Origin: Pseudomonadota bacterium
Lineage (GTDB): Bacteria; Pseudomonadota; Gammaproteobacteria; Burkholderiales; Thiobacillaceae
Direction of reading: 5' to 3'
Assembly (NCBI GenBank): GCA_030653935.1
Contig: JAURYL010000097.1
Span: 1-40,807 of the forward strand
DNA length: 40,807 nucleotides
Part shown: positions 7,428 through 37,001 of the stretch, piece by piece
Layout: each line of letters begins with the position of its first letter
Numbering within the stretch: the stretch's first letter is position 1
Translations under genes and position numbers: made by a program
Notes under the pieces: model-generated
What the model was told of the DNA's origin: nothing
What the model saw: the letters and a program-made list of their open reading frames with translations, nothing else
Databases searched by the model: none

Positions 7428-7475
7428 GGGACGCCGGAGCGTCCAGGAATTGCTCCCACGCTGGAGCGTGGGAGC
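7428..7475. repeat. Half copy of the four-hairpin GGACGCTGGAGCGTCC/CCCACGCTGGAGCGTGGG element
   Basis: One GGACGCCGGAGCGTCC hairpin, the spacer AGGAATTGCT, and one CCCACGCTGGAGCGTGGG hairpin match the right half of the larger elements at 17861-18140, 26056-26163 and 32517-32624. It lies between the thioredoxin stop and the aminotransferase start. Confidence 0.75.
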
Positions 7476-17400: not shown

Positions 17401-17745
17401 ATCGACGCGGTTGAGCCGGACTTCCACCTCGAAAATGCCGCCATCCGGCCGCTGGTGCCGCCATTCGAAAAACTGTGGCTCGCCGTCCAGTGCCCGCTGG
17501 ATGTTGGCGCGCGCCATAGCCTCGGAGTCGCCGCCATTCGCTTGCCGGGGAGGCGAGAAATCCCAGGGCGCCTTGCCCAGAATCCCCGCCTCGGGGCCGC
17601 CATACAAAACCAGCGCGCTGGGATTGCAGGCCACGAAGTAAAAACCATCGAGCAAAAACATGGCATCCCCCGCCGCCTCGAACAGGGCGTGGCAATCCGG
17701 CACGAAAGTGCGGAAAGTGGAAATGGGGAAGGCCGGATCGCTCAA
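14491..17745 (-). CDS. Multi-PAS GGDEF-EAL cyclic di-GMP enzyme 2
   Basis: This 1084-residue soluble protein has five PAS domains (~15-130, ~140-265, ~270-390, ~395-520 and ~525-645), then GGDEF (~655-810) and EAL (~830-1080). GGDEF is intact at residues 733-737, with an RAED inhibitory site upstream; EAL is intact at 861-863, with DDFGTGYSSLAHLKRFPIDK downstream. It is homologous to the neighbouring gene in its catalytic half and last PAS domain, so the two probably arose by duplication, but the sensory parts differ (five PAS here; PAS-GAF-PAS x4 there). Translation appears to start at a TTG, supported by an AGGAG site 6 nt upstream. It is divergent from the HD-GYP regulator gene. Confidence 0.92.
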   Translation of the reverse strand: MSDPAFPISTFRTFVPDCHALFEAAGDAMFLLDGFYFVACNPSALVLYGGPEAGILGKAPWDFSPPRQANGGDSEAMARANIQRALDGEPQFFEWRHQRPDGGIFEVEVRLNRVDQPGGPLLQALVRDITAHKLALAALRESRDYAEQLLSVSGAMMLVLDREARITRVNPAGCAILRCAEADILGQPWIERFIPERARDEVRALFQRVLADDIDSSLGHDNPVLTCSGEERHLIWHNTPLRDADGHVSGVLSSGLDISGQQRAEAALIESESRIRAILDTAVDGILVVDEASRVVFANPAIRRLTGYSDKELQDRPLTDLMPERYRDLHEAGFNRYLNNGQPRMPWRELAFVLLHRDGHEVPVEVSIGERGGAGQRQFIGIMRDVGERRRAQQLLREREEHINLLLDSMAEGIYGVDTHGNCTFVNPAGLRLLGYERAEELLGRHIHEIIHHSHTDGSAYPARECRAYRAYTEDRGIHVDDEVFWRRDGSALPVEYWSYPMRRDGGVIGSVVTFLDISARRAAEERLRQSAKVFESTTDGVSITDTSGNMIAVNRAFSEITGYSEAEVLGRNPRILNSGRHDKLFYQALWSSIARTGSWSGEIWNRRKNGEIYPEWLTISSVTDMAGKLTNYVGVFSDISQIKQSEAERERLAHFDPLTGLPNRLLFNARLDHAIQRAERDGTLLTLLFIDLDRFKTVNDALGHPAGDRVLQEVARRLQLSVRAEDTLARLGGDEFAIALEGEGSATLASAMAEKLLAALTRPFELDAQTVFVGASIGISTYPENGKDAATLLKNADAAMHQSKDDGRDTYRFYNAAMTRSARERLTLETNLRRAIEQQEFLLYYQPQIDVGSGEIVGVEALVRWNHPASGLISPARFIPLAEETGLIVPLGEWVLLTACAQAKAWLDNAAMPGMSMAVNLSPRQFRQSNLAAHVRAVLDASGLPPERLELEITESAIMDNPDRAVATLRELKQLGITISIDDFGTGYSSLAHLKRFPIDKLKIDQSFIRDIPQEQSDMEIAATIIAMARNLHLKVLAEGVETEKQLAFLEIHGCDAYQGYLRSRPIPAPALEQWLQQRGTQA

Positions 17746-17860
17746 TGCGGCTCCTGGGGAACGCGGGATGGAAAGGGGACGGCGCGACTGATAACGGCAA
17801 GTAGCCGTATATCTTTAGTGCAGTTTTAAGGTGAAACAAGATTGCGTCGGGAAGCCCCCG
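17746..17860. other. Leader side of the divergent intergenic region
   Basis: The gap between the TTG start of the GGDEF-EAL gene and the HD-GYP gene totals 469 bp. This first 115 bp holds the AGGAG site for the minus-strand gene and an AT-rich patch (about 17805-17835, including TATATCTTTAGTGCAGTTTTAAGG) that is the only promoter-like stretch here. I could not fix -35 and -10 boxes with confidence. The remainder is taken up by the tandem repeat element and a 75-bp leader with a GAGG site before ATG 18215. Confidence 0.4.
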
Positions 17861-18140
17861 GCCGAGGGCTGGTTTCTGGTTCCCACGCTCCAGCGTGGTA
17901 ACCGGCCTTGGACGCTCCAGCGTCATCGCGTGGGACGCTGGAGCGTCCAAGAATTGCTCCCATGCTGGAGCGTGGGAGCCAGGTGGGACGCGTGGGGGCC
18001 AGGTGAGGCGACGGCCGAGGGCTGGTTTCTGGTTCCCACGCTCCAGCGTGGTAACCGGTCCTGGACGCTCCAGCGTCATCGTGTGGGACGCTGGAGCGTC
18101 CAGGAATTGCTCCCACGCTGGAGCGTGGGAGCGAGGTGGG
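17861..18140. repeat. Two tandem copies (127 bp each) of a four-hairpin element
   Basis: Copy 1 (17861-17987) and copy 2 (18014-18140) have identical length and nearly identical sequence, at an offset of 153 bp. Each contains four small hairpins in the order CCCACGCTCCAGCGTGG, GGACGCTCCAGCGTC, GGACGCTGGAGCGTCC, CCCACGCTGGAGCGTGGG (copy 1 has one change in the last). The whole unit is therefore also one large inverted repeat. Related copies are at 7428-7475 (half), 26056-26163 and 32517-32624. Confidence 0.85.
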
Positions 18141-18214
18141 GTAGCCAGGCAGTGCCCTCAAGTTTCCCCAAACCCTGCCGATACTCCAGGGCATACACCC
18201 GAGGTTTTTCATTT

Positions 18215-19312
18215 ATGCCGGAAAACAAGGTAGCCACACTCCTGATCGTCGATGACGCCATCGAGAACCTTTCGGTTCTTGATGCGCTCCTGCGGCCCCG
18301 CCACCAAGTGCTCGCGGCCACTTCCGGGGAGAAGGCGCTGCGTATCGCCCGCGGCGAGCCGCGGCCGGATCTGATCCTGCTCGATGTGATGATGCCGGTC
18401 ATGGACGGCTACCAGGTGTTCGAGCGGCTGCGCGCCGATGACGCCACGCGCGATATCCCGGTCATCTTCGTCACCGCGATGGACAGCATCGATGATCAGT
18501 TGCGCGGTTTCGATGTCGGCGCGGTGGACTACATCAGCAAACCCGTCGTGCCGTCCGTGCTGCTGGCGCGGGTGCGTACCCAACTTGAATTGAAAGGGGC
18601 GCGCGACCGTCTCGCCGACCAGAACACCTGGCTGGAAGCCGAGGTCGCGCGGCGTCTGGCGGATAACGAACTCACCCAGGAAGTCAGCATCCGCGCGCTC
18701 GCGCATCTGGCGGAAACGCGCGACCCGGAAACCGGCAACCACATCCTGCGCACCCAGGGCTATGTGCAACTCCTCGCGCAGCGCTTGCAAGGCCATCCTC
18801 GCTTCAGCGGCACCCTGAACGACCGTTACATCCAGCTGCTGGCCCGCTCCGCCCCCCTGCACGATATCGGCAAGGTCGGCATCCCGGACGCCATCCTGCT
18901 GAAGCCCGGGCCGCTCGACGCGGAGGAATGGCGCGTGATGAAAACCCATGCCCGCATGGGTAGCGACGCCATCGAAATGGCCGAGCGGGACGCCACGCAA
19001 GCAGTGGAATTCCTTGCCCTGGCCAAGGAAATCGCCCATTGGCACCATGAAAAATGGGACGGCGGCGGTTACCCGGACGGCCTCGCCGGGGAAGCGATTC
19101 CTGTTTCAGCCCGGCTGATGGCCATCGCCGACGTCTTCGACGCCCTGATCTCGCAGCGCGTCTACAAGCCGCCCATGTCCTTCGAGCAGGCGCGCGAAAT
19201 CATTGCCGCCGGTCGTGGCAGCCACTTCGACCCGGACATCGTCGACGCCTTCCTGGCCGGTTTCGATGAATTCGCCGGCATCGCCCAACGTCATCGCGAC
19301 GCCCCGGGATAA
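18215..19312 (+). CDS. Response regulator with HD-GYP cyclic di-GMP phosphodiesterase domain
   Basis: This 365-residue protein has a receiver domain (~8-125) with the acidic pair in LLIVDDAIENL, phospho-acceptor Asp57 in LILLDVMMPVMDGY, and the conserved lysine in DYISKPV. A coiled linker (~130-165) follows. The HD-GYP domain (~170-355) has H216-D217 in LHDIGKVGIPDAILLK, the HHEKWDGGGYPDGL segment with GYP at 285-287, and ADVFDAL. HD-GYP enzymes hydrolyse c-di-GMP to pGpG or GMP, usually under control of the phosphorylated receiver. ATG 18215 has a GAGG site upstream. It is the first gene of an apparent operon, 5 nt before the sensor gene, and is the only stand-alone response regulator in the window. 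It is thus the natural candidate target for the HPt domains encoded downstream. Confidence 0.94.
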   Translation: MPENKVATLLIVDDAIENLSVLDALLRPRHQVLAATSGEKALRIARGEPRPDLILLDVMMPVMDGYQVFERLRADDATRDIPVIFVTAMDSIDDQLRGFDVGAVDYISKPVVPSVLLARVRTQLELKGARDRLADQNTWLEAEVARRLADNELTQEVSIRALAHLAETRDPETGNHILRTQGYVQLLAQRLQGHPRFSGTLNDRYIQLLARSAPLHDIGKVGIPDAILLKPGPLDAEEWRVMKTHARMGSDAIEMAERDATQAVEFLALAKEIAHWHHEKWDGGGYPDGLAGEAIPVSARLMAIADVFDALISQRVYKPPMSFEQAREIIAAGRGSHFDPDIVDAFLAGFDEFAGIAQRHRDAPG

Positions 19313-19317
19313 TCCTC

Positions 19318-21531
19318 ATGTCGACAAACGACCCCGCTGGAACCCATCGCTTCGCCCTGCGCGCCGCGCTGTTTTACGCCCTCCTGGGCGGGGTCTGGAT
19401 CGTCTTCTCCGACCAGGCGGCGGAATGGCTGACCAGCGACCCGAAGTTGCTTGTTTTCATCAGCATGTTCAAGGGCCTGGCCTTCGTCGCGGTCACCGCC
19501 CTGGTCTTGTGGGTGCTGTTGCTGCGCGGCGAAGGGCGACAGGCCGCACCAGCCGGCGAGAACGTGGAGGGCATGGACAGCCGCGCGCGTTTTCCGAGGC
19601 TGCTCATGCTGCTGCCGGGACTGCTCATCCTCGTTCTCACCGCCGCTGGTGTCTCGCATGTTTTACGGCAGCAGGAAAATGAGGGCATGGCGGAGTTGCG
19701 CGCCATTGCCGACCTGAAAGCGCGGCAGTTGACCGACTGGCTGCGGGAACGCGAGGAGGATGCCCGTTTCATCGCCGGCACCCGTCATCTCGGCGAGGAT
19801 TATCAGCACTGGCAAACGCGTAAGGATGCGGCGAGCGGCGAACGGTTGCGGCGGGATCTGCGCGAATTCGTCAAATACACCGGCTTTCACAGCGCCCAGG
19901 TGCTCGATGCCCGGGCCACGCAAATGATCTGGGATTCTGAAAAACCACCAGGGGCCATTCCCGCGCCGGTGCACGCCGCCGCCGCTCGGGTCTGGTCCGA
20001 AGGCAAGCCGATCCGGGTCGGCCCCTACCGCGATGCCGATGACCGTTTGCACCTGGATTATGTCGTCGCCCTGCCGGCGGCAAGCAGCGGCGCCGTGGCC
20101 GTGCTGCATATCGATCTGTCCGAGACCCTGTTTCGCCTGCTGCAAACCTGGCCACGTGCCAGCGGCAGTGGCGAGGTCGTCTGGTTTCGCCGCGACGGCG
20201 AGGAAATCCTGTTCCTCAACGAACTACGCCACCGCACCGATACGGCGGTCAGGTTGCGCCTCTCGGTGCGGGAAACTCAGGCACTGGCAGCCCAGTTCTT
20301 GCGGGGGGAAGTGAAGCTGGGGCAGGCGGTGCGTGGTGTGGACTATCGGAATACGCCGGTGTTCGGCGTGATCCAGGCCGTGCCCGGCGGCGACGGCTTC
20401 GTGCTCGCCAAGGTCGACGAGGCGGAGCTGTACACCGACGCCTATCAGGAGGTCGCCTGGGTACTCCTGGCCGGCCTGCTGGCCTTGCTGGCGCTGGGCG
20501 TCGGTTTTCATCTGGCGCGGCAGCGCCGGGAACTGGCGATCACGGAAGGTGTGCGGCACTCGCAGGAAGAACGTCTGCGCGCGCTACGCCTGCTGGCCAG
20601 CATCGCCGACAGCTCAGCCGAGGCCATCTTCGCCAAGGACCTCGAAGGACGTTATCTTCTGATCAACCGGGAAGCCGCCCGGATTATCGGCAAGACCGTC
20701 GAGGAGGCGTTGAACCGGGACGACACGGCGCTGTTCCTCCCCGCGCAGGCTGAGATGCTGCGCGCCAACGACCACCGCGTGATCGCCGAGGATCGGGTCA
20801 ACACCTACGAAGAGACGTTCATTACCGCGCAGGGAGAGCGCACCTTCCTGGCAACCAAGGGGCCGCTGCATGATGACCAGGGCCGGGTCATCGGTCTGTT
20901 CGGCGTCTCCCGCGACATCACGGAACGCCGCCAGGTGGAACTGGCCCTGCAACGCGAGCGGGATCGGAACCAGCGTTACCTCGACACCGTGCAGACGATC
21001 ATGGTCGTTTTCGACAGCGAGGGGCGCGTCACCATGATCAACCGCAAGGGTTGCGATCTCCTGGGCTACGCGGAAGCAGAATTGCTCGGGCGGAACTGGT
21101 TCGAAACCTGCCTGCCGCAACCGGAAGGCCTGGAGCAGGTCTACCCCGTGTTCCGGCGCATCATGGCCGGCGAGCTGGATACGACGCAGTACTTCGAGAA
21201 CGTGGTGCTCTGCCGCGACGGCCGGCAACGCCTGATCGCCTGGCGCAACGCCTATTTCAGCGATGACGCGGGCAACATCATCGGCACCCTGAGTTCCGGT
21301 GAGGACATCAGCGAACGCAAGGCCGCCGAGGACATGCTGCGCCGGCAGACGGAGGAGCTGAAGAACCGCAACGCGGAACTGGAACGCTTCAACCGCGCCA
21401 CGGTGGGACGCGAGCTGGACATGATCGAACTCAAACGCAGAATCAACGCGTTGTCGCGTGAGCTTGGCCGGGAAGTGCCTTATTCCCAGACCATGTTCGA
21501 CACCCCGGCGGCGCCCGAGGGCGAATCATGA
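19318..21531 (+). CDS. Membrane PAS sensor protein without kinase domain (sensor 1)
   Basis: This 737-residue protein has two N-terminal membrane helices (~13-31 and ~46-65, including [19 protein letters not shown]), a third at ~99-120, a large extracytoplasmic Cache-like ligand domain (~125-375), a fourth helix (~385-405), PAS (~424-545), PAS (~548-670) and a charged coiled-coil tail (~674-725) reading [20 protein letters not shown], then [17 protein letters not shown]. No HisKA, HATPase, GGDEF or other output domain follows the tail. The stop overlaps the start of hybrid kinase 1 by 4 nt (ATGA), implying coupled translation. I infer it delivers a signal to that kinase through the tail. A nearly identical tail occurs in sensor 2. 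Confidence 0.88.
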
Positions 21532-24500
21532 GCACGGCCAAACCCGGATGGGTCGCGGCGTTCGCCACCCTCCTGGTGTGCTTGAGCCTCTTGCTCATGA
21601 CCGGCGCCTGGGCGGAGCAGGCTGTTCCGGCTGTGGCGACGCCACCCGCGATGACCCTACCGGCGACCCTGACCGAGGAAGAGCGCGCCTGGCTGCGCGC
21701 GCATCCGGTCATCCGCGTGGCCCAGGACCCGGGCTGGCCGCCGGTCGAATTCGCCGATGCGCGCGGCGCGCCGTCGGGCATGTCCGACGATTACCTGAAA
21801 CTCATGGAGCAGCGCCTGGGGGTGAAGTTTGAACGCGTGCGCGTATCGAGCTGGCAGGAGGCCTATGCAGGGCTGAAACGCCGGGAGATCGATATGACCA
21901 CCTCGGTGGCGGTGTCACCGGAACGGGCCGAATTCTGGGCCTTCACCAAGCCGTATATGACGATTCCCATCGTCATCGTCACCCAATCGAACGTGACCTA
22001 CATTGGCGCCATGCGGGAATTGGCGGGGAAGCGAGTCGCCGTGGTGGAAAACTATGCGGTCAGCGACTGGGTACGGCGAGACTTCCCGGATATCCGCCTG
22101 CATTCGGTCAAGTCAGCGCGGGAAGGACTCGAAGCTTTGCAGCGAGGCGAGGTCTTTGCGCTGATCGAAAGCATGCTCGTCTTTGACTATTTCCAGACCA
22201 AGCTGGGCATGACAGCGCTCAAGATCGCGGGGCAAACCCGATACATGAACGTGCAGTCCATGGCGGTGCGCAAGGATTGGGCAATCCTGGCCGGCATCCT
22301 CGACAAGGCGCTGGATTCGATCAGCGAGACGGAGCGCGCCGCGATCTATCGGAAATGGCTCCCTGTCCAGTATGAGCCGCCATTCAACAGCACCCGCTTC
22401 TGGCAGATGCTTGCCTTGTTCACCGTGGCACTCCTGGGCTTGCTGTTATGGATACGCAAGCTGAACAGCGAAATCCGGCGGCGCAAACAGGCGGAAGCGG
22501 CCACCCGCAAGAGCGAACAACGCTTCGTCCGCTTGTTCCAGGAAGCGCCGTTGCCGCTGTGTTATGTCGACAAGGACGGCGTACTGGTGGATATCAATCG
22601 CCGCTTCGTGGAAACCCTCGGCTACGACCAGTCTGATGTGCCGACCCTGGCTGAATGGGGGCCGCGGGCCTATCCCGACCCGGTCTATCGCGCCTGGGCG
22701 CTGGAAACCTGGAACGCCGCCGTGGCGCGCGCCGTTGAAACCGGCGCGGATATCGAGCCGATCGAATATCGGGTTACCTGCAAGGATGGCGCGCAACGCA
22801 CCTTCCTGATTTCCGGCATCACGTTGGGCGACGACATTCTCGCCACGCTCTTCGATGTCTCTGAGCGGGAGCGGGCGGAAGCGGCGCTGCGGGAAAGCCG
22901 GGAACAATTGCGGTTGTTCGTCGACCACGCGCCGGCCGCGCTCGCCATGTTCGACCGCGAGATGCGCTATCTGTATGTCAGCCAGCGCTGGATGGCGGAC
23001 TATGGCCTCGGCGAGCGGGACATCATCGGTCGATGCCACTACGACATCTTCCCGGAGATACCGGAACGCTGGAAGGCGATCCATCGTCGCGCCCTGGACG
23101 GCGAGGTCATCCAGGCGGACGAAGACGCGTTCGAGCGCGCGGATGGCACGGTGCAATGGCTGCAATGGGAAGTGCGGCCCTGGCATGGCGGGGACGGCGC
23201 GGTGGGGGGCATCGTCGTCTTCACCGAGGACATCAGCACGCGTCGGCGAGCCGAGCAGGTGTTGCAGGAACAACAGACTACCGCCCTGGAAGAACAGCGC
23301 CAGTCCCAGCTCGCGGCGCTGAATCTGCTGGAGGATGCCGTCGCCGCGCGCCGGCAGACCGAATCCACGCTTGCCGCCCTGCATGACAGCGAGCAGATGA
23401 TGCGGGGCATTTTCCGGGCCGCCCCGACCGGCATCGGCATGCTGGTGGAGCGGACCTTCATCGAAGTCAACCAGACCTTCATCGACATGCTCGGCTATAG
23501 CCGGGATGAATTCATCGGCCAGTCCTCGCGCATGGTCTACCCCGACCAGGAAGAATATGAGCGCGTCGGTAGGGAGAAATACCGGCAGATTGCCGAGCGG
23601 GGCATGGGCAGTCTGGAAACCCACTTAAGGCACAAGAACGGGCAGGTGCTCGATGTGTTGCTGAGCAGCACGCCCCTCGACCCGGAGGACCTCGCCAAGG
23701 GCGTTATCTTCACCGCCCTGGACATCACCGAACGCAAGGCTGTGGAGGCGCAGTTGCGCAAGCTCTCGCAAGCGGTGGAGCAAAGCCCGGAGAGCATCGT
23801 CATCACCAACCTGGACGCCAAGATCGAATATGTGAACGAAGCGTTCCTGGCAGCAACCGGCTATGACCGCGAGGAAGTGGTCGGCCAGAACCCGCGCATC
23901 CTGCACTCGAACAAGACGCCGGCGGAAACCTACGAATCGCTCTGGGTCGCCCTCAGCCAGGGGCAGGCCTGGAAAGGCGAGTTCATCAACAAACGCAAGG
24001 ACGGCAGCGAATACGTCGAGTTCGCCATCATCACGCCGCTGCGCCAGGCCGACGGCACGATCAGCCATTACGTCGCGGTGAAGGAGGACGTAACCGAGAA
24101 GAAACACCTGGGTGAGGAACTGGACCAGTACCGCCACCATCTGGAAACGCTGGTCGCGGAACGCACCGGCCAACTGGCCGAGGCCAAGGAGGCGGCGGAA
24201 GCCGCCAACCGCGCCAAGAGCGCCTTCCTGGCCAACATGAGCCATGAGATCCGCACGCCGATGAACGCCATCCTCGGCCTCACCCACCTGCTGCGCCGTG
24301 ACGGCGCGACACCGATGCAGGCCGAGCGCCTGAGCAAGATCGGCGGCGCCGCCAAGCACTTGTTGTCGATCATCAACGACATCCTCGACTTGTCCAAGAT
24401 CGAGGCCGGCAAGCTGCAACTGGAGCAGAGCGATTTCGCCCTCTCCGCCGTGCTCGATCATGTTCGCTCGCTGATATTCGACGCGGCCCAGGCCAAGGGC

Positions 24501-26018
24501 CTGAGTGTCTCGGTGGACGGTGACGAGGTGCCGGTGTGGCTGCGCGGCGACGCCACCCGCGTCCGCCAGGCGCTGCTCAACTTTGCCGGCAACGCGGTCA
24601 AATTCACCGAGCGCGGCGGCATCAGCCTGCGCGCGCGTTTGCTCGAAGACCAGGGTGAGCAACTACTGCTGCGCTTCGAGGTGGAAGACACCGGCATCGG
24701 CATTGCCCCCGACATCCTGCCCAGGCTGTTCGCCGCCTTCGAGCAGGCGGACGCCTCCACCACCCGCCGCCATGGCGGCACCGGCCTCGGCCTGGTGATC
24801 AGCCGCCACCTGGCGGAACTGATGGGCGGCGAAGCCGGAGTGGAGAGCACACCCGGGCGCGGCAGCACCTTCTGGTTCACCGCGCGCATGGGCCGCGGCC
24901 GCGGCGTCATGCCGGCGGCGCCGGAGCCGCCGCTGGAAAGCGAAGCGGAATTGCGCCGCCGCCATGCCGGCGCCTGCCTGCTGCTGGCGGAAGACAACCT
25001 GATCAACCGTGAAGTGGCGCTGGAACTGCTGCATGCCGTCGGCATGGCGGTGGACACCGCCGTGGATGGCCGCGAAGCGCTGGAGAAAGCGCGCGTGGGC
25101 GACCACAGCCTGATCCTGATGGACGTGCAGATGCCGAATATGGATGGGCTGGAAGCCACCCACGCCATCCGCGCCCTGCCAGGCTGGCGCGACAAACCGA
25201 TCCTGGCGATGACCGCCAACGCCTTCGACGAAGATCGTCGCGCCTGCCTCGATGCCGGCATGAACGACTTCGTCGCCAAACCGGTGGACCCGGAAGCACT
25301 CTATGCCGCGCTGTTGCAATGGCTGCCGGAGACGGCTTCGGTCGCGCCGACGGTCGCCAGCGCCGCAATCGTCCAGCGCAATGCCGGCTTCGTCCTGGCG
25401 AGCTGGCCAGGGTTCGACCCGCGACGCTGCCTGCTCAGCCTCGGTGGCCGCGCGGAAAAAAGCATGAAGCTCCTGCACAAGTTCGCCGAAGCGCACCACG
25501 ACGACGCCGAGCGTCTGCGGGTGTTGCTGGAAACCGGCGCGGTGGTGGAAGCGCATCGCCTGGCGCATACCCTCAAGGGCGTCGCCGCGACCCTGGGTCT
25601 GATCGACGTGCAACAGCAGGCGGCGGCACTGGAACAGTTGCTGAAACCCGCCGCCGAGGACGCCGCTCCGACTCCGCCCTGTACCGACCCGCTGGACGAA
25701 CTGGCGCGGGCGCTGGCCGAGGCGGTGGCCCACATCGCCAATCTGACGCTGACGGCGGAAGTCGAACCGGAAGCCGTTGCCACTTCACCGGCGTCGACGG
25801 CGGCGGCCCTCGCGCAACTACGCGGCCTGCTGGCGCGCAGCGACACTCGCGCCGTCGAGCTTTTCCGGCAACAGGCGCCGCTGCTGCGCACGGCCCTGGG
25901 CGGCAAGTGCGAAGCACTGTCCCGCGCGGTCGAGGCCTACGACTTCGAGACCGCGCTGGCCTTGCTGGCGGCCGGGTCGGAGCACGACGCGCCTCCCGTG
26001 AACAGTGGCGGCGACTGA
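21528..26018 (+). CDS. Hybrid sensor histidine kinase HK1 (SBP_bac_3, PAS x4, HisKA-HATPase-REC-HPt)
   Basis: This 1496-residue protein has a signal peptide (~1-29) followed by a periplasmic solute-binding family 3 domain (~45-285; [19 protein letters not shown], then [20 protein letters not shown]), a membrane helix (~292-311) and PAS domains at ~329-452, ~454-580, ~624-742 and ~743-865. HisKA carries phosphorylatable His906 in [14 protein letters not shown]. HATPase_c has the N box [11 protein letters not shown] and G boxes DTGIGIAP and [14 protein letters not shown] has Asp1199 in [13 protein letters not shown], and HPt has His1347 in [13 protein letters not shown]. Binding of a small polar metabolite in the periplasm is expected from the family. 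All phosphorelay residues are present; no DNA-binding output exists, so phosphate should pass to a separate regulator. From the first PAS onward it is nearly collinear with HK2. Confidence 0.95.
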
Positions 26019-26055
26019 CGCATGCGCGGCGCGCCGTCAATGCTCGCCCCCTGGT

Positions 26056-26163
26056 GCCCACGCTCCAGCGTGGGCACGCTTCTTGGACGCTCCAGCGTCC
26101 AGAGTCATGGCACATCGGGACGCTGGAGCGTCCGGACTTGCTCCCACGCTGGAGCGTGGGAGC
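26056..26163. repeat. Four-hairpin repeat element between HK1 and sensor 2
   Basis: It contains the ordered hairpins CCCACGCTCCAGCGTGGG, GGACGCTCCAGCGTCC, GGACGCTGGAGCGTCC and CCCACGCTGGAGCGTGGG, as in the tandem element at 17861-18140. It occupies most of the 188-bp gap between HK1 and the next sensor gene. A duplicated counterpart is at 32517-32624. Confidence 0.85.
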
Positions 26164-26206
26164 GAGCGGTGCAAGCGTTTTGTACCCACACGACATGGGC
26201 TGAGTC

Positions 26207-27943
26207 ATGACACCCGCCACTAAGCCGCTAGGCTGGAATCCCGTCAGGAGTTGGCCGCGCTGGTCGCTTTATGTCTTCGCGGCCACGATCACCCTGGCGA
26301 TGCTGCTGGTTCGAATGCAGTTGGCGCCGTCGTTTGGCGAGCGGCCGCTGTTGATCCTGCTCATGCTGCCCATCGTGCTCAGTTCCCTGCTCGGGGGCTT
26401 GGGACCGGGGCTGCTCGCGACCGGCATCGCCGCCAGCGCTTCGGCCTGGTTCATCCCGCCCGCCACGTTGCTCGGAATCGATGCCGGGCATGACCAGTTC
26501 CAGTGGAGCATCCTCATCATCAACGGCGTGCTGGTCAGTCTCCTGGCCGGTTGGTTGCACCGCACCCGCGGTCAAGTGGAGGCCGACCGGCAGGTGCAGG
26601 CGGAACAATTACGTGCACTGCGACTGCTCGACGCCATCGCCGAGGAATCGGCGGACTGCCTCTTTGCCAAGGACAGCGAAGACCGTTTCACCCTGTTCAA
26701 CCGCGCCTTGGAACGGCTCAGCGGCAAGAAGGCGTCAGAGGTCCTGGGCCGCGACGAAAGCGCGATCTTCCCCGCCGAGCTCGCGGCGCAGATCAAGGCC
26801 GACAACCGCTTGGTGATGGCGGAAAACCGCAGCCTGAGCTTCCAGGAAAACCTGGTCACGGCACAGGGCACGTTCGCCTACATGACCACCAAGAGCCCGT
26901 TGCACGACGCTGACGGCAAGGTCGTCGGCCTGTTCGGCATCGCCCGCGACATCACCGACCTGAAACAGGTCGAGCTCGCCCTGCGGGAAAGCGAAGGTCG
27001 ATTCCGTGCGCTGGTGGAGGAAACGCTGGCCGGCATCTACATCATCCAGGACGACCACTTCCGCTATGTCAACCCGGGCTTTGCCGCCATCTTTGGCTAC
27101 GACACGCCGGAGGCGCTGATCGACCGGGTGCCGGTCGCCGATCTGGTCAGCCCGGAACACCGTGAGCGGGTGGCCGAGAATCTTTGTCGTCGCCTCGAAG
27201 GTGAGATCGTCGACGCGCAGTACACCTTTACCGGTCTGCGCCGTAACGGCGAACGTGTCGACGTCGAGGTGCATGGCCGCGTCTTTGTGTATCAGGGAGA
27301 GCCGGCGGTCATAGGCCTGCTCATGGATATCAGCGAGCGCAAGCAGGCTGAGCAGGCGCTGGCCGAGAGCGAGGAAATCTTTCGCGCCATATTCGAGCAG
27401 GCCGGCGTCGGCGTCGCGCTGATCGACAGCAACACTGGGGCTTTCCTTCGCGTCAATTCGCGTTATGGCGAGATCGTGGGACTGGGCACGGAAGCGATGA
27501 AGTCGACCGATTTTATGGCCATTACCCACCCGGACGATTTGCGTACCGACCTGGATTACATGGCGCGTCTGCGCGCCGGAGAGATTCGAGCCTTCAACCT
27601 GGACAAACGTTATTTTCGCCATGACGGTGTCACGGTCTGGGTCAATCTCGCGGTCACGCCCTTGTGGCCGCCCGGCGCGCCGCCCAACCGCCATGTCGCG
27701 GTGGTGCAGGACATCAGCGAACGCAAGGCCGCCGAGGAAATGCTGCAGCTTCAGGCGGAAGAACTGAAAGCCCGCAACGCGGAACTGGAGCGCTTCAACC
27801 GCGCCGTCGTGGGACGCGAGTTGGACATGATCGAACTCAAGCGCCAGGTCAACGAATTGTCGCGCGAGCTCGGCCGGGAGCCTCCGCATGCGCTGTCGTT
27901 TCCCGATTCGCCAGGGGCGCCTGACGAGAAGGGCGCGCCATGA
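26207..27943 (+). CDS. DUF4118 membrane PAS sensor protein without kinase domain (sensor 2)
   Basis: This 578-residue protein begins with a KdpD-like DUF4118 four-helix membrane module (~18-112; [20 protein letters not shown] is characteristic). PAS domains follow at ~138-260, ~262-380 and ~388-510, then the coiled tail (~513-565: [37 protein letters not shown]) shared with sensor 1. There is no catalytic or DNA-binding domain. Its stop overlaps the start of hybrid kinase 2 by 4 nt (ATGA). Residues 1-~380 are collinear, without gaps, with the N-terminus of hybrid kinase 3, where the same input module is fused to a kinase. That is good circumstantial evidence that this protein feeds a kinase. 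Confidence 0.88.
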
Positions 27944-30900
27944 ACCACGCATCGGCGCCCGTGCCGCGCGAGGGCATCCCGCTGCGGACCTTCCTCACTC
28001 GCCTGATCTGGCTGTGTGTGTTGCCACTGGTATTGCTGGCGGCGTACCTGGCCTTCGACCATGTACGTGCCCAGCGAGCGGAGCACGATCTGGCTGCCGG
28101 TAACCTGGCAAAAAACTTCGCCACGGCCATCGACCAGTACCTCGATGCGCGCATCAAAGCCCTGAGCGTTCTCGCCCTGTCGCCTCTGGTGGATGACACC
28201 GCGCACTGGCCCACGCTCTACCAGGAGGCGCGTGGCATCCAGCGGAGCTTTGGCAGCCACGTCATCTTCGCCGACACGGACCTGCGCATGTTGTTCAATA
28301 CCCGCGCGCCCTACGGCGCCATTTTGCCCAATCTGCCCCGGCCCAAGGGGCGCGCGGCTGCGCCGACGGCGTTGGCGACCGGCAAGCCCGCCGTCGGCGA
28401 TATCGTGTTCGGGCCGGTCGCCAAGGAGTCTCTGGTCGCCATCGCCGTGCCGGTTACGCGTGGTGGGCATTCCACCCATCTGCTGCTGTCCATACTCGAA
28501 ACCCGATTGTTCCAGGCACGCCTGGAACAGGTGTCGCTTCCTGACGGCTGGTCCCTCAGCCTGCTCGACAGCGAGGGTGGGGTGATCGCTCGCCGCGCGC
28601 CGCCCGGGCTGAATCCGGCCCGGGATGTCGATGCGGCCGGGCGCTTCGTCGTCAAATCGAAGCTATCGCCCTGGTCGGTGCGTTTGGAAATCCCGCGCGA
28701 TGCTTACCAGGTACCTCTGTACTCGGCGGCCGCCGGCTTGGCGCTGGCGATTCTGGCCGCGACGCTGATCGGCGTGCTGGGCGGACAATTGGCCAGCCGC
28801 CGGCTCGGCCGGTCGGTGGCGGCGCTGGCGGAAATGCCGGCAACCGGGACATCGATCCTGAATATCCGGGAAATCACGGCGGTGCGCGGCCTGCTCGAAC
28901 GGACGTCGGCGGCGCGCAAGACGGCCGAAGCGACCCGGAACGAGAGCGAGCAACGCTTCGCCCGGCTGTTCCAGGAAGCACCGGTGCCGCTGTGTTATGT
29001 CGACAAGAACGGTGTGCTGGTGGATATCAATCGCCGTTTCGTGGACACCTTCGGCTACGACCAGAACGATGTGCCGACCCTGGCTGAATGGTGGTCACGC
29101 GCCTATCCCGACCCGGCCTATCGCGCCTGGGTGCTGGAGACATGGGGCGCCGCCGTGGCGCGTGCCGCCGAGACCGGCGCGGATATCGAGCCAGTCGAAT
29201 ACCAGGTCACCTGCAAGGATGGCGCGCAACGCACCATCCTGATTTCCGGCATCCCCCTGGGTGAGGATTTCCTTGCCACGTTCTTCGATTTCACCGAACG
29301 CCGGCGGGCGGAAGAAGCAGTGCGCGAGAGCAAGGAGCGATTCCGGCGGGCGCTGGAGAATATCCCGGACGTGGTCGTGATTTACGACCGCGACCTGAGA
29401 ATTCAGTACATCAACGAGGCCACGCGCCAGATCACCGGGCGTCCCGTTTCCGACTTCATCGGCCGGCGCGAGGAGGAAATCTGGCCACCGGAAATTTACG
29501 GGTTGTATCTACCCGCGCTCAAGGAGGCCCGCGCGACCCGGAGCCGGCGCGCGCTGGACTGCGAGCTCGTGTTGCCCGACGGGTCGAGGCGCTACCTCCA
29601 TATCACCTGTGTGCCCCTGATCGACCCACAGGGCGAGGTCAGGGAAGTCCTGGGCATCACCCATGACTTCACCGAGAGCAAGCAGGCCGAGTCAACCTTG
29701 CATGAGGCGCAGGCAACCGCCCTGGAAGAACAGCGCCAGGCGCGGCTCGCGGCCCTGAATCTGATGGAGGATGCCCTTGTCGCGCGTCGCCAGACCGAGG
29801 TGGCCAACACGGCGTTGTGCGAGAGCGAGGAACGTTTTCGCCGCGCGGTGTTGTACTCGCCGTTTCCCATCCTGCTGCATGCCGAGGATGGAGCGATTCT
29901 CCAGGCCAGTAATTCATGGTGCGAAATCAGTGGTTATGCGCCTGAGGAACTTACCACCACCGACGACTGGACCGAACGGGCCTATGGCGAAAGAAAGACA
30001 CTCGTACAGGCGGACATTGATCGGCTTTACGGTCTGGATCATCGTGTAGCCGAGGGCGACTACACCATTCGTACCCGATCCGGGGACACGCGCATCTGGG
30101 AGTTCAGCTCCGCGCCGCTGGGCCGCTTACCGGATGGTCGGCGCCTGGTCATGAGCATGGCCATGGATGTGACGGAACGGCGCGCGGTCGAGGATCAGTT
30201 GCGCAAGCTCGCCCAGGCGGTGGAGCAAAGCCCGGAGAGCATCGTCATCACCAATCTGGACGCCGAGATCGAATATGTGAACGAAGCGTTCCTGACGGCC
30301 ACCGGCTATCGCCGCGAGGAGGTGGTCGGCCAGAACCCGCGCATCCTGCACTCGAACAAGACGCCGGCGGCAACCTACGAATCGCTCTGGGCCGCGCTCA
30401 GCCAGGGGCGGGCCTGGAAGGGCGAGTTCATCAACCAGCGCAAGGATGGCGGCGAATACGTGGAATTCGCCATCATCACACCGCTGCGCCAGGCGGACGG
30501 CACGATCAGCCACTATGTCGCGGTGCAGGAAGACGTAACCGAGAAGAAACGCCTGGGCGAAGAACTGGACCAGTACCGCCACCACCTGGAAGCGCTGGTC
30601 GCGGAACGTACCCGACAACTGGAACAGGCCAAGGATGCCGCCGAAGCTGCCAACCGCGCCAAGAGCAGCTTCCTTGCCAACATGAGCCACGAAATCCGCA
30701 CCCCGATGAACGCCATCCTCGGCCTTACTCACCTGCTGCGCCGCGACGGCGCCACCCCGGCGCAGCGCGAACGCCTGGGCAAGATCGGCGGCGCCGCCAA
30801 GCACCTGTTGTCGATCATCAACGACATCCTCGACCTGTCCAAGATCGAGGCCGGCAAGCTGCGATTGGAGCAGAGCGATTTCGCCCTCTCCGCCGTGCTT

Positions 30901-32484
30901 GACCATGTCCGCTCGCTGATATTCGACGCGGCCCAGGCCAAGGGCCTGAGTGTCTCGGTGGACGGTGACGAGGTGCCGGTGTGGCTGCGCGGCGACGCCA
31001 CCCGCGTCCGCCAAGCGCTGCTCAACTTTGCCGGCAACGCGGTCAAGTTCACCGAAAGTGGCGGCATCAGCCTGCGCGCGCGGTTGCTCGAAGACCAGGG
31101 CGAGCAACTACTGCTGCGCTTCGAGGTGGAAGACACCGGCATCGGCATTGCCCCCGACATCCTGCCCAGGCTGTTCGCCGCCTTTGAGCAGGCGGACGCC
31201 TCCACCACCCGCCGCCATGGCGGCACCGGCCTTGGCCTGGTGATCAGCCGCCACCTGGCGGAGCTGATGGGCGGCGAAGCCGGGGTGGAGAGCGAGCCCG
31301 GGCGCGGCAGCCTGTTCTGGTTCACCGCGCGCCTGGGTCGTGGCCACGGCGCCATGCCGGCGGCACTGGAGCCGCCGCCGGAGGCCGAGGCCGAGCTACG
31401 CCGCCGCCATGCCGGCGCCTGCCTGCTGCTGGCGGAAGACAACCTGATCAACCGGGAAGTGGCGCTGGAACTGCTGCATGCCGTCGGCATGGCGGTGGAC
31501 ACCGCCGTGGATGGCCGCGAAGCGCTGGAGAAAGCACGCGTGGGCGACCACAGCCTGATCCTGATGGACGTGCAGATGCCGAATATGGATGGCCTGGAAG
31601 CGACCCACGCCATCCGCGCCCTGCCGGGCTGGCGCGACAAACCGATCCTGGCGATGACCGCGAACGCCTTCGACGAGGATCGTCGCGCCTGCCTGGATGC
31701 CGGCATGAACGACTTCGTCGCCAAGCCGGTGGACCCGGAAGCACTCTACGCCGCGCTGTTGCAATGGTTGCCGGAGAAGGCGGAGTCCGCCGCCGCGCCG
31801 CCATCCGAGCATGAGGCCGACGCGCCCGACATGACCGACATGAACGGCATCGCCGCGATCCTGGCGCGCTGGCCCGATTTCGATCTGCGCCGCTGCCTGA
31901 CCAGCCTCGGCGGCCGTGTGGATAAATGCCCTAAGCTGCTGATCAAGTTCGCCGACGCGCACCACGACGACGCCGAGCGCCTGCGGGGGTTGCTGGAAAC
32001 CGGCGCGGTGGTGGAAGCGCATCGCCTGGCGCATACCCTCAAGGGCGTCGCAGCGACCCTGGGTCTGATTGACGTGCAACAGCAGGCGACGGCGCTGGAA
32101 CAGTTGCTGAAACCCGCCGCCGAGGATGCCGCGCCGACCCCGCCCTGTACCGACCCGCTGGACGAACTGGCGCGGGCGCTGGCCGAGGCGGTGGCCCACA
32201 TCGCCAGTCTGACGCTGACGGCGGAAGTAGAGCCGGAAGCCGCCGCCACGACCCCGGCGGCGACGGCGGCGGTGCTCGCGGAACTGCGCGGCCTGCTGGC
32301 GCGCAGCGACACCCGCGCCGTCGAGCTCTGCCGACAGCGGGCGCCGCTGCTGCGCGCGGTCCTGGGCGGCAGGCACGAAGCGTTGTTCCGCGCGGTCGAG
32401 GCCTATGACTTCGAGACCGCGCTGGTCGTGCTGGCGGCCGGGTCGGAGCACGACGCGCCTCCCGTGAACAGTGGCGGCGACTGA
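27940..32484 (+). CDS. Hybrid sensor histidine kinase HK2 (Cache, PAS x4, HisKA-HATPase-REC-HPt)
   Basis: This 1514-residue protein has membrane helix 1 (~22-42), an extracytoplasmic double-Cache-like domain (~45-255; [18 protein letters not shown] at its start), membrane helix 2 (~262-285) and PAS domains at ~337-460, ~463-590, ~628-750 and ~755-880. The kinase has His917 ([14 protein letters not shown]), N and G boxes as in HK1, REC Asp1210 and HPt His1365. The kinase and REC parts are almost identical to HK1, with a constant DNA offset of 6445 bp. The extracytoplasmic input domain is unrelated (SBP_bac_3 in HK1), so the same output has been given a different sensor. It is translationally coupled to sensor 2. 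The REC-HPt linker carries 21 nt more than in HK1. Confidence 0.95.
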
Positions 32485-32516
32485 CGCATGCCCATCCTCC
32501 TCCTCCCCTCCCTGGT

Positions 32517-32624
32517 GCCCACGCTCCAGCGTGGGTACGGATCTTGGACGCTCCAGCGTCATGCCGGTACTACGGGACGCTGGAGCGTCCGTCCGGACTT
32601 GCTCCCACGCTGGAGCGTGGGAGC
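32517..32624. repeat. Four-hairpin repeat element between HK2 and HK3
   Basis: It has the same four ordered hairpins as 26056-26163, at nearly the same distance behind the kinase stop codon and before the next DUF4118 gene. Copies and flanking genes therefore appear to have been duplicated together. No gene lies in the 215-bp gap. Confidence 0.85.
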
Positions 32625-32699
32625 GAGCGGTATGGCGTGCGCCGTGCCTACCCCAGCCGATGATCAGCACCCGGCCCGCATCCACCAGGAATGCCGAAG

Positions 32700-35600
32700 A
32701 TGACGCACAAACCCTTTGATTCCGCCGCCGCTGCTGCCAGGCGCTGGCCGCGCTGGTCGGTCTACGCGTTCGCGGCGCTGATCACCCTGGCGATGCTGTT
32801 GCTGCGGATGACGCTGGCGCCGTCCTTCGGCGAGCGGCCGCTGTTGATCCTGCTGATGCTGCCCATCGTGCTCAGTGCCTTGCTCGGGGGCATGGGGCCG
32901 GGACTGCTCGCGACCGCCATAGCGGCCATCGCTTCGGCCTGGGCTTTCCTGCCGGCCACGTTGCTTGGTATCGATACGCGGCATGACCTGTTGCAGTGGA
33001 GCATCCTCATCGTCAATGGCGTGCTGGTCAGCGCCCTGGCTGGCTGGCTGCACCGCGCCCGCGAGCAGGTGGAAGCCGACCGGCGGGCGCAGTCGGAACA
33101 ATTACGCGCCCTGCAACTGCTCGACGCCATCGCCGAGGGGTCCGCCGATTGCCTCTTCGCCAAGGACAGCGAAGACCGTTTCATCCTGTTCAACCGCGCC
33201 TCGGAACGACTCAGCGGCAAGCAGGCGTCAGAGGTCCTGGGCCGCGACGAAAGCGCGATCTTCCCCGCCGATCTCGCGGCTCGACTCAAGGCCGACAACC
33301 GTATGGTGATGGCAGAAAACCGCAGCCTGTGCTTCCAGGAAAACCTGGCCACGGCGCAGGGTACGTTCGCCTACATGACCACCAAGAGCCCGCTGCGCGA
33401 TGCCGAGGGCAAGGTCATCGGCCTGTTCGGCATCGCCCGCGACATCAGCGAACTTAAACAGGCTGAACTCGCCCTGCGCGAGAGCGAAGGCCGCTTCCGC
33501 GCGCTGGTGGAGGAGACGCTGGCCGGCATCTACATCATCCAGGACGACCACTTCCGCTATGTCAACCCGGGCTTTGCCGCCATTTTCGGCTATGACACGC
33601 CAGAGGCGTTGATCGACCGGGTGCCGGTCGCCGATCTGGTCTGCCCGGAAGATATCGAGCGGGTGGCCGAAAATATCCGCCGCCGTCTCGAAGGCGAGAT
33701 CATCGACGCGCATTACACCTTTACCGGCCTGCGCCGCGACGGTAGCCGCGTCGATGTCGAGGTGCATGGCCGTATCTTCGAGTATCAAGGGCGCCCGGCC
33801 GTTATTGGCCTGCTCCTGGACATCAGCGAGCGCAAGCGGACCGAAGCCAGTCTTGCCAGGGAACGCGGCCTGCTCAAGACTCTGTTGCAAACCTTGCCGG
33901 ACCTGGTCTGGCTGAAGGATACGCAAGGCGTTTATCTGGCCTGCAATGCCCGCTTCGAACGGTTTCTCGGTCGCGCGGAGGCGGACATCCTCGGCAAGTC
34001 CGACTACGACTTCTTCAACCAGGAACTGGCCGAGTTCTTCCGCGAAAAGGATCGCGCCGCCGTTGCCGCCGGCAAACCCACCCGCAACGAAGAGGAAGTG
34101 GCCTTCGCCGACGACGGTCACCGCGAGTGGCTGGAAACCATCAAGACGCCGATGTTTGATGCCGACGGCACTCTGATCGGCGTGCTCGGCATCGCCCGTG
34201 ACATTACCGCCGCCCGCCAGGCCCAGGAGACGCTGCTCAGGCAAGGCAAGTTGCTGGCGGAGTCGCAACGTATCGCGCACATCGGCAGTTGGGAGGCCGA
34301 GCTACCGCTCGGCGGCATCACCTGGTCGGAGGAGCTATACCGGCTCTATGGCGTGTCGCCGACGACCTTTACGCCTTCCCATGAAACGTTTCTGCCCCTG
34401 GTTCATCCGGAGGATCGGGACAACGTCCTGGCCTGGTTGGCCGCCTGCATGGTGGGTGAGCATCCCGGCGACCTCGAATTCCGGGCGCGCCGTCCCGATG
34501 GCGCGGTACGCATCATCAGCGGCCGTGGCGAACTGGTGTGCGATGCCGACGGCCAGCCGATCCGCATGGTGGGCACGGCGCAAGACATCACCCAACGGAA
34601 ACAGGAACAGGAGGCGCTGTGCGAGAGCGAGTCGCGGCATCGCGCCGTGCTCACCGCGCTGGGTGAGGGCGTGTACGGCATGGATAGGACGGGCCGCTGC
34701 ACTTTCGTCAATGCCGCCGCCCTGACCATGCTCGGCTTCAGTGAAGCGGAGATGCTGGGGCAGAACCAGCACGCGCTGTTCCACCATCACTACCCGGATG
34801 GCCGGCTCTATCCCAGCGCCGAATGCCCGATCTTCAGGACCTTGCGCGATGGCCAGGCGCGCAGCCAGGTGGAGTGGTTCATTCGCAAGGACGGCACGAT
34901 GTTCCCCGTGGAAATGATCGCCACACCCATGTGCTCCGGGGGAGAGCAGGTGGGCGCGGTGGTGTCTTTCCAGGACATCAGCGCGCGCCTGGAAGCGGAG
35001 AACCAGATCCGCAAGTTGTCCCTGGCGGTGGAGCAGAGCCCGGAAAGCATCGTCATCACCAACTTGGACGCCGAGATCGAGTACGTCAACGAGACTTTCC
35101 TGCGCGCCACCGGCTATCGCCGCGAGGAGGTGATCGGGCAGAACCCGCGTCTGCTGCACTCCGGCAAGACGCCCCGGGAAACCTATGCCTCCTTGTGGGC
35201 GGCCATGGCGCGGGGCCAGCCGTGGAAAGGCGAGTTCATCAACAAGCGCCGGGATGGCGGCGAATACGTGGAGTTCGCCAACATCACCCCCCTGCGCCAG
35301 GCGGATGGCCAGATCAGCCATTTCGTGGCGGTGCAGGAGGACATCACCGAGAAGAAACGCATCGGTATCGAACTGGATCAGCACCGTCACCATCTGGAAA
35401 ACCTGGTGGAACAACGCACCGCCGAACTACAGATCGCCAAGACCCAGGCGGAAGCGGCCAGCCAGGCCAAGAGCGCGTTCCTGGCCAATATGAGCCATGA
35501 GATTCGCACCCCGATGAACGCCATCGTCGGTCTCACCCATCTGTTGCAACGGGCCGGGGTGACCCGGGAACAGGCTGATCGTCTCGGCAAGATCGACAGC

Positions 35601-37001
35601 GCCGCCCACCATCTGCTTTCGGTCATCAACGACATCCTCGACCTGTCCAAGATCGAGGCCGGCAAGCTGCGGCTGGAAGAGACCGATTTCGCCCTGGGCG
35701 CCGTGCTCGACCATGTGGGTTCGATGATTGCCGAAGCCGCCCGAACCAAGGGCTTGCGCGTGGAAGTGGATGGCGATGCCGTGCCGCTGTGGCTGCGCGG
35801 CGACCCCACCCGCCTGCGCCAGGCGTTGCTCAATTACGCCGGCAACGCGGTCAAGTTCACCGAACACGGTGGCATCGCCTTGCGCGCCCGGCTGCTGGAA
35901 GAAAACAACGCCAGGCTGAGGGTGCGTTTTGAGGTGGCGGACACGGGCATCGGCATCACGCCGGAGGCGTTGCCCAGATTGTTCGCCGCCTTCGAGCAGG
36001 AGGACACCTCGACCACCCGCCGCTTCGGCGGCACCGGCCTGGGGCTGGCGATCACCCGCCATCTGGCGCGCATGATGGGCGGCGAAGCCGGCGTGGAGAG
36101 CGTGCCGGGGCGGGGCAGCACCTTCTGGCTCACGGTACTGCTGGCGCGCGGCCACGGGGTGATGCCGCCCGCGACCGTGGCGGAACCGGAGGCCGAGGCC
36201 GAACTGCGCCGCCGCCACGCCGGTTGCCGCGTGCTGCTGGCGGAAGACAACATGATCAACCGCGAGGTGGCGCTGGAACTGCTGCACGCCGTCGGCCTGG
36301 ATGTGGATACCGCCGAGGATGGCCAGGAGGCGCTGGAAAAAGCCGGCGCGCACGACTACGCGCTGATTCTGATGGATGTGCAGATGCCGAGGCTGGATGG
36401 CCTGGAGGCGACGCGCGCGATTCGCGCTCTGCCGAGCTGGCGCGAGAAGCCGATCCTGGCGATGACCGCGAATGCTTTCGACGAGGATCGCCAAGCCTGC
36501 CTGAAATCCGGAATGGATGATTTTGTCGCGAAGCCGGTGGACCCGGAGGTGCTCTACGCGACCCTGCTGAAATGGCTGCCGGCGGCGGGGGAGGGCGCGC
36601 GACCGCAGGTGTCGCCAGCGCCGACAGGGGGCGCGACCACGCTGGAGTGGCTGGCGACGTTGCCGGGAATCGATCTGAACCTGGGTTTGGCGGTATTGCG
36701 CGGCAACGCGGAAAAGTATCTGACCCTGCTGCGCTTGTTCGCCGATACGCACCACGCCGACATGGCGCGCATCCGCGAGCATCTGGCCGCGAATCAGGGC
36801 GTGGAAGCCCAACAGCTTGCCCACGGCCTCAAGGGCGTGGCGGCGACGCTGGGCGCGACCCAACTCGCGGCGCATCTGGGGCGCTTGGAAGTGGATCTGA
36901 GACAGCCGTCTGGAGCGCTCGACACAGCGGCTTCGGTCGATGCCCTTGAGGCGGAACTGATCGCGTTGACGACGGCGATCCGGGGTGTTGCGAAGCGGTA
37001 A
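32700..37001 (+). CDS. Hybrid sensor histidine kinase HK3 (DUF4118, PAS x6, HisKA-HATPase-REC-HPt)
   Basis: This 1433-residue protein has a DUF4118 membrane module (~15-112), six PAS domains (~135-260, ~262-380, ~385-510, ~515-645, ~650-770 and ~775-895), HisKA with His933, HATPase_c ([20 protein letters not shown]), REC with Asp1226 ([13 protein letters not shown]) and HPt with His1375 ([13 protein letters not shown]). The first ~380 residues match sensor 2 with a constant 6493-bp offset. This places the start at ATG 32700, with AGGA 9 nt upstream, rather than ATG 32691, where AGGA would abut the codon. The kinase core is homologous to HK1 and HK2 but clearly more diverged. It probably shares their phosphorelay target. 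Confidence 0.94.

Follow-up and report, generated by a model that had tools for sequence, protein, structure and literature searches.

A conserved C-terminal tail of kinase-less bacterial sensors and a candidate docking helix in their partner hybrid histidine kinases

How does a bacterial receptor that ends without any output domain pass on its signal? The question is raised by a signalling gene cluster of a Thiobacillaceae bacterium (Gammaproteobacteria, Burkholderiales), located on contig JAURYL010000097.1 of assembly GCA_030653935.1. The window analysed here, 40,807 nt, is this entire contig, which is part of a draft genome of ~3.8 Mb. Its sensor 2 gene (26207-27943, + strand) encodes a protein of 578 aa with, by Pfam, a transmembrane (TM) DUF4118 domain and three PAS domains, followed by a C-terminal tail, and its stop codon overlaps the start codon of the hybrid histidine kinase HK2 (27940-32484, + strand) in the sequence ATGA (27940-27943). 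A preliminary description of this DNA had noted the 4-nt overlap and had read sensor 2 as DUF4118-PAS-PAS without output domain. The overlap is confirmed, and so is the absence of a kinase domain, since Pfam found neither HisKA nor HATPase_c at E 0.01 and sensor 2 is thus not a hybrid histidine kinase itself, but a third PAS domain and the tail are present as well. The membrane location of sensor 2 is judged from DUF4118 and inspection only. We propose that the tail, as a plug, and a helix of the kinase, as its socket, probably couple kinase-less sensors to the kinase in trans through a presumed direct contact.

The tail, with the consensus ELERFNRxxVGRELxMIxLKxxxN, is common to the two kinase-less sensors of the window. 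In sensor 2 it matches the tail profile at 27773-27901 (+) and is a predicted helix after the last PAS domain; in sensor 1 (19318-21531, +), a membrane sensor with a weak dCache_1 match under the Pfam cut-off, two PAS domains and no kinase domain, the profile match lies at 21364-21492 (+). The tail region was the sole blastn match (E 1e-10) between the DNA of the two sensors, covering 178 nt with 86% identity. A tail scan with one genome per species yielded 132 confirmed loci, and the best 80 of these were analysed; 79 of them contain 87 open reading frames (ORFs) with a tail, and L038 gave none. The tail is the C-terminus in 87/87 of these ORFs, with 1-27 residues beyond the profile match, and its invariant polar residues are R, E and K. 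Over 3,655 pairs, the mean identity was 65.2% for the tail versus 16.8% for the preceding 146 residues, the former figure being inflated because the loci were selected by the tail. The tail is a shared cassette. Among the best 80 of the 132, the loci are mostly proteobacterial, and metagenome-assembled genomes named Lentisphaerae, Verrucomicrobia, Omnitrophica and Chloroflexaceae are also represented. The tail of one locus from the same genus as the window (L006, genome G044) is identical to that of a locus named Thiobacillus denitrificans (L040), which makes Thiobacillus the probable genus. A phylum search with a longer alignment (A1), which covered the PAS end, gave many PAS false positives; 40 stretches from hand-picked matches reaching the tail columns were used, and the loci derived from them are not an even sample because of this picking. 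The F-type and W-type tail subtypes were assigned by eye.

Of 72 tail proteins scanned with Pfam, 69 were free of kinase domains; the set comprised both sensors of the window plus 70 of the 87, with near-duplicates and proteins of >1,000 aa excluded. The inputs of these 72 vary, including DUF4118 (13), dCache_1 (7) and MASE1, 5TM-5TMR_LYT, SBP_bac_3 and HAMP (1 each). Three tail proteins (L028:5646-8180, L045:5475-8189 and L062:6027-8165) have HisKA-HATPase-REC ahead of the tail, and the hybrid kinase itself is therefore tail-terminated there. Six chains (L129, L130, L143, L145, L149 and L150) carry both an internal and a C-terminal tail, like two fused sensors. No tail model was among the Pfam matches of the 72 tail proteins (E 1e-5) or among the NCBIfam matches of sensors 1 and 2 (E 0.001), although the alignment of a NahK whole-kinase NCBIfam model, with a score far under the cut-off, extends in sensor 2 as far as residue 554. 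A degenerate HisKA as the identity of the tail was rejected, as hhalign of the tail against HisKA profiles gave no similarity and Pfam placed no HisKA there. No description of the tail, of the kinase motif presented below or of their pairing was found in searches of the open-licence literature, those with literal tail and motif strings included.

The preliminary description had proposed a search for conserved pairing in other genomes, and such pairing is indeed present. In 67 of the 87 tail ORFs, the next ORF has a start codon at exactly -4 (9 of the 87 had no usable next ORF), and at this distance our own hidden Markov models (HMMs) identified the next ORF as a kinase in 61 cases and as another tail protein in 6. 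Compared with other signalling genes of the same loci, tail genes more often showed a 4-nt overlap with the following domain gene (61/88 versus 37/214) and more often had a kinase next (62/88 versus 30/214). When genes without a domain gene within 200 nt were excluded (14 tail, 100 control), these proportions became 61/74 versus 37/114 (Fisher 8e-12) and 62/74 versus 30/114 (Fisher 4e-15), respectively. HATPase_c and HisKA were each detected by Pfam in 44 of 46 next proteins, consisting of HK2 and 45 of 47 picked non-tail proteins from closed ORFs of 300-1,700 aa; the two left out were L032, where by our own HMMs the next ORF holds PAS only and is followed by a HisKA-HATPase ORF, and L093, a kinase by the same HMMs. 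Some kinases are preceded by tandem tail genes, two or three in a row, e.g., in L039, L069, L078 and L083. Within the window, sensor 1 and the kinase HK1 (21528-26018, +) make up a second sensor-kinase pair, which the preliminary description does not mention; it shares the tail, and its two genes likewise overlap by 4 nt. These genomic data lend good support to the view that sensor 2 would be a detachable input subunit of HK2.

A third tail protein is encoded in the same genome (contig C108, locus L004) between a REC-HD-GYP gene and a binding-protein gene, read by inspection as of the phosphonate type, which overlaps a hybrid kinase gene. The order of HD-GYP gene, W-type tail protein and hybrid kinase recurs in four genomes from the genus and family (L004, L179, L180 and L181). 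In this arrangement one more gene can stand ahead of the kinase, the binding protein in the case of L004, and the kinases of the four loci carry a variant segment, 'ALLSMLEDQ'.

On the kinase side, the candidate socket is an inter-PAS helix with the motif AALNL(M/L)EDAxxAR. It is carried by HK1 (23289-23396, +) and HK2 (29725-29832, +) and, by pattern check, not by HK3, the third kinase of the cluster. By Pfam, HK1 is arranged as SBP_bac_3-TM-PAS-PAS-motif-PAS-PAS-HisKA-HATPase-REC-HPt, and HK2 has the same order from the first PAS domain onwards behind a sensor domain with a weak dCache_1 match under the Pfam cut-off. The motif of HK1 overlaps an island of 89 nt that is 86.5% identical to HK2 and encodes LAALNL(M/L)EDAxxAR near residue ~600, and the PAS stretches flanking this island gave no blastn match between the two genes. 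In 62 motif kinases, which were selected by the motif core and not by its flanks, column identity reached 0.81 in the core and dropped to <0.2 at distances of more than about 30-40 residues to both sides. Some simpler kinases, e.g., L146 and L203, have the motif directly before HisKA. The motif and the tail have no similarity to each other, no PDB chain matched either of them (E 0.1), and no model specific to the motif was found in Pfam or among the listed NCBIfam matches of HK1-HK3.

Whole-genome searches with a motif profile of 13 kinases (A6, E 1e-4), carried out in order, family and class samples that partly overlap in genomes, linked the motif to the tail. In the order, the tail occurred in 16/300 genomes and the motif in 10/300, all 10 of them tail-positive (hypergeometric 6e-15, phylogeny ignored); nine of the ten motifs lay <=3.5 kb downstream of the tail on the same strand, and the tenth (G668) was on a separate contig. 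The family had the motif in 7/61 genomes, all among the 8 tail genomes and at <=3.5 kb, and the class in 2/276, both among its 9 tail genomes. As a control, an equal-length segment of the signalling helix (S-helix) from 11 of the 13 A6 kinases was found in 158/300 order genomes and at 14 places in the genome studied here, including HK3, versus 2 for the motif. Since this control is far more widespread, it is the motif, and not the kinase core, that tracks the tail. Among loci L016-L095, 49 of 51 motif-bearing kinase frames had a tail <=5 kb upstream on the same strand. A match to the strict motif pattern was also present in 25 of 68 control kinases; of these, 24 follow a same-strand tail within 5 kb, and the distance is 5,019 nt for the 25th.

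A number of observations weigh against so close a link between tail and socket. Motif-less kinase frames of the same loci (L016-L095) also had a tail <=5 kb upstream on the same strand in 42 of 58 cases, and the strict motif pattern was present in just 34 of 76 directly downstream kinases, the motif often being found in a second kinase further down the operon and not in the one after the tail. Tail genomes without a motif match (E 1e-4) numbered 6/16 in the order, 1/8 in the family and 7/9 in the class. The six of the order have W-type tails (G762, G895, G812 and G914) or an HD-GYP output (G369 and G724), the tail in the latter two preceding an HD-GYP gene, and kinases that accompany W-type tails either lack the A6 motif or carry the variant ALLS(M/V)(L/I)ED. 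Because the motif profile was trained on kinases of tail operons, whole-operon inheritance explains part of the association. Besides, the co-variation of tail and motif, corrected for the relatedness of the kinases, was weak and did not reach significance (partial Mantel 0.16, p 0.053, 53 pairs).

Natural fusions place tail and motif in one chain. Fifteen proteins have an internal tail followed by a kinase, and AA(L/M/I)S(L/V)AED or AALNLAED stands between the two in 15/15, at a tail-to-motif spacing of 16 to 216 residues. The longer spacing is seen in ten of the 15, and in 8 of these ten it contains a match to a PocR-like domain pattern, recognised by inspection. Among three further fusions, L188 and L193 match the motif pattern and L195 reads HAISLAED at this place, a one-residue variant; by pattern, the order tail, motif, kinase is found in 17/18 natural fusions. 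It is these tail-bearing fusions of other genomes, not HK3, that support sensor-kinase coupling. Tail-like segments beside or fused to HD-GYP outputs, not kinases, were observed in L165, L184 and L185, with the tail of L185 fused to PAS-HD-GYP.

Structure predictions are available for both elements as monomers; from the 89 tail and 56 motif segments at hand, 81 and 52, respectively, served as input. For the C-terminus of sensor 2, AlphaFold2 (81 sequences) predicted a PAS domain running into one 51-residue helix (~504-554, predicted local distance difference test (pLDDT) 96-98) and an unstructured end. The HK2 segment (52 sequences) was predicted as an uninterrupted 73-residue helix between two PAS domains, with a pLDDT of 97-98 around the motif at its centre.

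Based on these predictions and on the gene order, we envisage sensors 1 and 2 as kinase-less membrane receptors that would be translated together with the following kinase and would have a non-catalytic output. The two tail helices of a sensor dimer would dock side by side on the motif helix of the partner kinase, both the contact and its stoichiometry being presumed. A shift in the PAS domain of the sensor may then alter the pitch or stability of the signalling helix of the kinase and change its kinase/phosphatase balance, the direction of this effect being likewise assumed. The kinase would read its own sensor domain (the SBP domain in HK1 and possibly Cache in HK2, with putative ligands) and, via the socket, also the separate sensor (possibly through Cache in sensor 1 and DUF4118 in sensor 2); where two or three tandem tail proteins precede one kinase, several receptors might feed one phosphorelay. 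There is an even chance, in our estimate, that this would extend to a general plug-and-socket system in bacteria, in which the tail adds many membrane or soluble sensors to kinases with the AALNLMEDA helix, and these sensors can be daisy-chained, swapped or fused without altering the kinase.

The preliminary description had based the coupling of sensor 2 to HK2 on a different argument, namely that HK3 (32691-37001, +) is a natural fusion of the sensor 2 module to a kinase. The observation behind it is confirmed: the protein alignment has no gaps between residues 16 and ~380 of sensor 2, and HK3, arranged as DUF4118-PAS(6)-HisKA-HATPase-REC-HPt, does run on into the kinase, receiver and HPt domains by Pfam, with additional PAS domains first. 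The identity per 40-residue block is 75-92.5% for residues 41-360, 57.5% for residues 1-40, 47.5% for residues 361-400 and 5-12.5% beyond 400, and the DNA is 87.0% identical over 1,102 nt (nt 39-1138 of the sensor 2 gene versus nt 48-1147 of the HK3 gene), far above chance. However, HK3 lacks the third PAS domain and the ~44-residue tail of sensor 2 and goes on into different PAS domains. Because these parts are absent, HK3 does not represent a fusion of sensor 2 to a kinase; from the pattern of similarity, it is a domain-shuffled paralogue sharing the first two-thirds of sensor 2. PAS and DUF4118 modules are promiscuous, and DUF4118 was found by Pfam in 24 of the 46 next-gene proteins as well. 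The common front end is therefore evidence of module shuffling only, and HK3, being a shuffled paralogue without tail or motif, is weak evidence for the coupling of sensor 2 to HK2; the idea of sensor 2 as a detachable input of HK2 is upheld by the genomic pairing instead. A more informative HK3, either because sensor 2 was truncated from it or because it arose by fusion of sensor 2 with a kinase, would be favoured by the gapless alignment and the DNA identity, but the lack of third PAS domain, tail and motif and the different PAS domains that follow leave this a very slight chance.

Could sensor and kinase be operon neighbours only, with the tail stabilising the sensor as a homodimerising coiled coil, the overlap of 4 nt keeping the co-inherited genes in step, and no contact between the two proteins? 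We consider this unlikely. Overlaps of 4 nt are common in these loci (37/114 control pairs), the co-variation is not significant, and tail and motif could be co-inherited as one operon, with many tail operons motif-less; yet the motif tracks the tail (10/300 genomes, all tail-bearing) versus 158/300 for the S-helix control, HK3 beside HK2 has a related core but no motif, the order of tail and motif is fixed in 17/18 fusions, and invariant R, E and K are not obviously needed in a mere dimer spacer. It is highly improbable that the tail protein provides the input for cyclic di-GMP signalling, with the upstream REC-HD-GYP or GGDEF/EAL proteins as its targets, and that the kinase is incidental. 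Although an HD-GYP gene stands just upstream of the first tail gene in 32/80 loci, tails precede an HD-GYP gene in G724 and G369, and L185 is a tail-PAS-HD-GYP fusion, 48/80 loci have no HD-GYP just upstream (some perhaps cut), a kinase follows 62/88 tail genes, and the HD-GYP-linked tails match the tail profile only in part. Lastly, the tail sits after the last PAS domain, where HisKA would start, and could be seen as the stump of a lost HisKA, with sensor 2 as a broken kinase; this is hardly conceivable for the best-conserved part of the protein, which is conserved even in loci named as other phyla, albeit loci chosen by the tail. A coupling by plug and socket thus remains the reading that we prefer.

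The cluster to which the two pairs belong comprises, in order on the + strand, a REC-HD-GYP ORF, sensor 1, HK1, sensor 2, HK2 and HK3. The REC-HD-GYP ORF at its head (17831-19312, +; Pfam) probably has its true start inside the ORF. HK1, HK2 and HK3 are hybrid histidine kinases, with HisKA, HATPase_c, REC and HPt all above the Pfam cut-offs. The 3' halves of HK1 and HK2 (23739-26018 and 30184-32484) are 90.7% identical over ~2,300 nt, a similarity that apparently derives from recent duplication or gene conversion, and they share ~79% identity with HK3 over ~1,600 nt (blastn). A multi-PAS-GGDEF-EAL protein is encoded next to the cluster in the opposite orientation (14491-17745, - strand). Palindromic elements resembling repetitive extragenic palindromic (REP) sequences (CCCACGCTCCAGCGTGGG with GGACGCTCCAGCGTCC) were observed at 7455-7475, 17859-18140, 26048-26169 and 32515-32624, the last three preceding the HD-GYP, sensor 2 and HK3 genes, respectively; a 21-nt REP-like pattern with <=3 mismatches had 11 matches in the window versus 0.01 expected.

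Database models label these sensors only as DUF4118 and PAS ('PAS domain S-box protein'). If the proposed coupling is true, the partner of such orphan receptors without output could be named from sequence, sensors and kinases would be joined by a natural connector that is exchangeable and usable for study and for sensor building, and the window would offer a testable case of one kinase reading two separate transmembrane receptors.

Among known systems, the S-helix is described in the cited sections of PMC1592074 as a conserved helix of ~40 residues that joins a sensory to an output domain and has a polar signature residue at a core position of the coiled coil. The tail and motif helices are like it in kind, as conserved helices tied to signalling domains; according to the same sections, the S-helix nearly always links two domains within a single protein, and its signature is ERT (PMC1592074). 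The tail is thus not an S-helix, being C-terminal with RE..K..N instead of the central ERT, and neither is the motif helix, which is inter-domain but has A, A, E and D as its invariant residues; the kinases of tail operons have an ordinary S-helix besides the motif. Multi-kinase systems of the GacS type reportedly integrate signals with a second sensor kinase. Both arrangements would integrate signals between sensor proteins, but the partner of GacS is a sensor kinase and the tail protein has no kinase domain in 69/72 cases. A further partner protein to be compared, RsbT, is not a membrane sensor. In the cited part of the literature on Bacillus subtilis, RsbT acts on the linker coiled coil of RsbU, and exchangeable sensors across output families have been proposed (PMC12143880). 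By analogy, a partner protein would here, too, switch a dimeric output by way of a linker helix, although in that account RsbT is freed from sequestration by stress and the output of RsbU is a serine/threonine phosphatase (PMC12143880).

Another precedent in kind, besides RsbT and RsbU, is that of DctA and DcuS of Escherichia coli, where helix 8b of DctA docks on the TM2/PASC linker of DcuS, as given in the cited passages of PMC8307970. Judged by the conservation of the pair and the 4-nt overlap, a second membrane protein is encoded together with the kinase here as well. Unlike in DctA-DcuS, as far as it is covered there, the genes are coupled by 4 nt and natural fusions exist, and tail and socket are presumably different sequences. 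In both cases, as we propose by analogy, a second membrane protein would control a sensor kinase via a C-terminal helix placed on an inter-domain linker (PMC8307970). In the system described in those passages, DctA is a transporter and structural co-regulator and DcuS does the sensing, whereas the partner proposed here would be a PAS receptor with a sensor domain of its own (PMC8307970).

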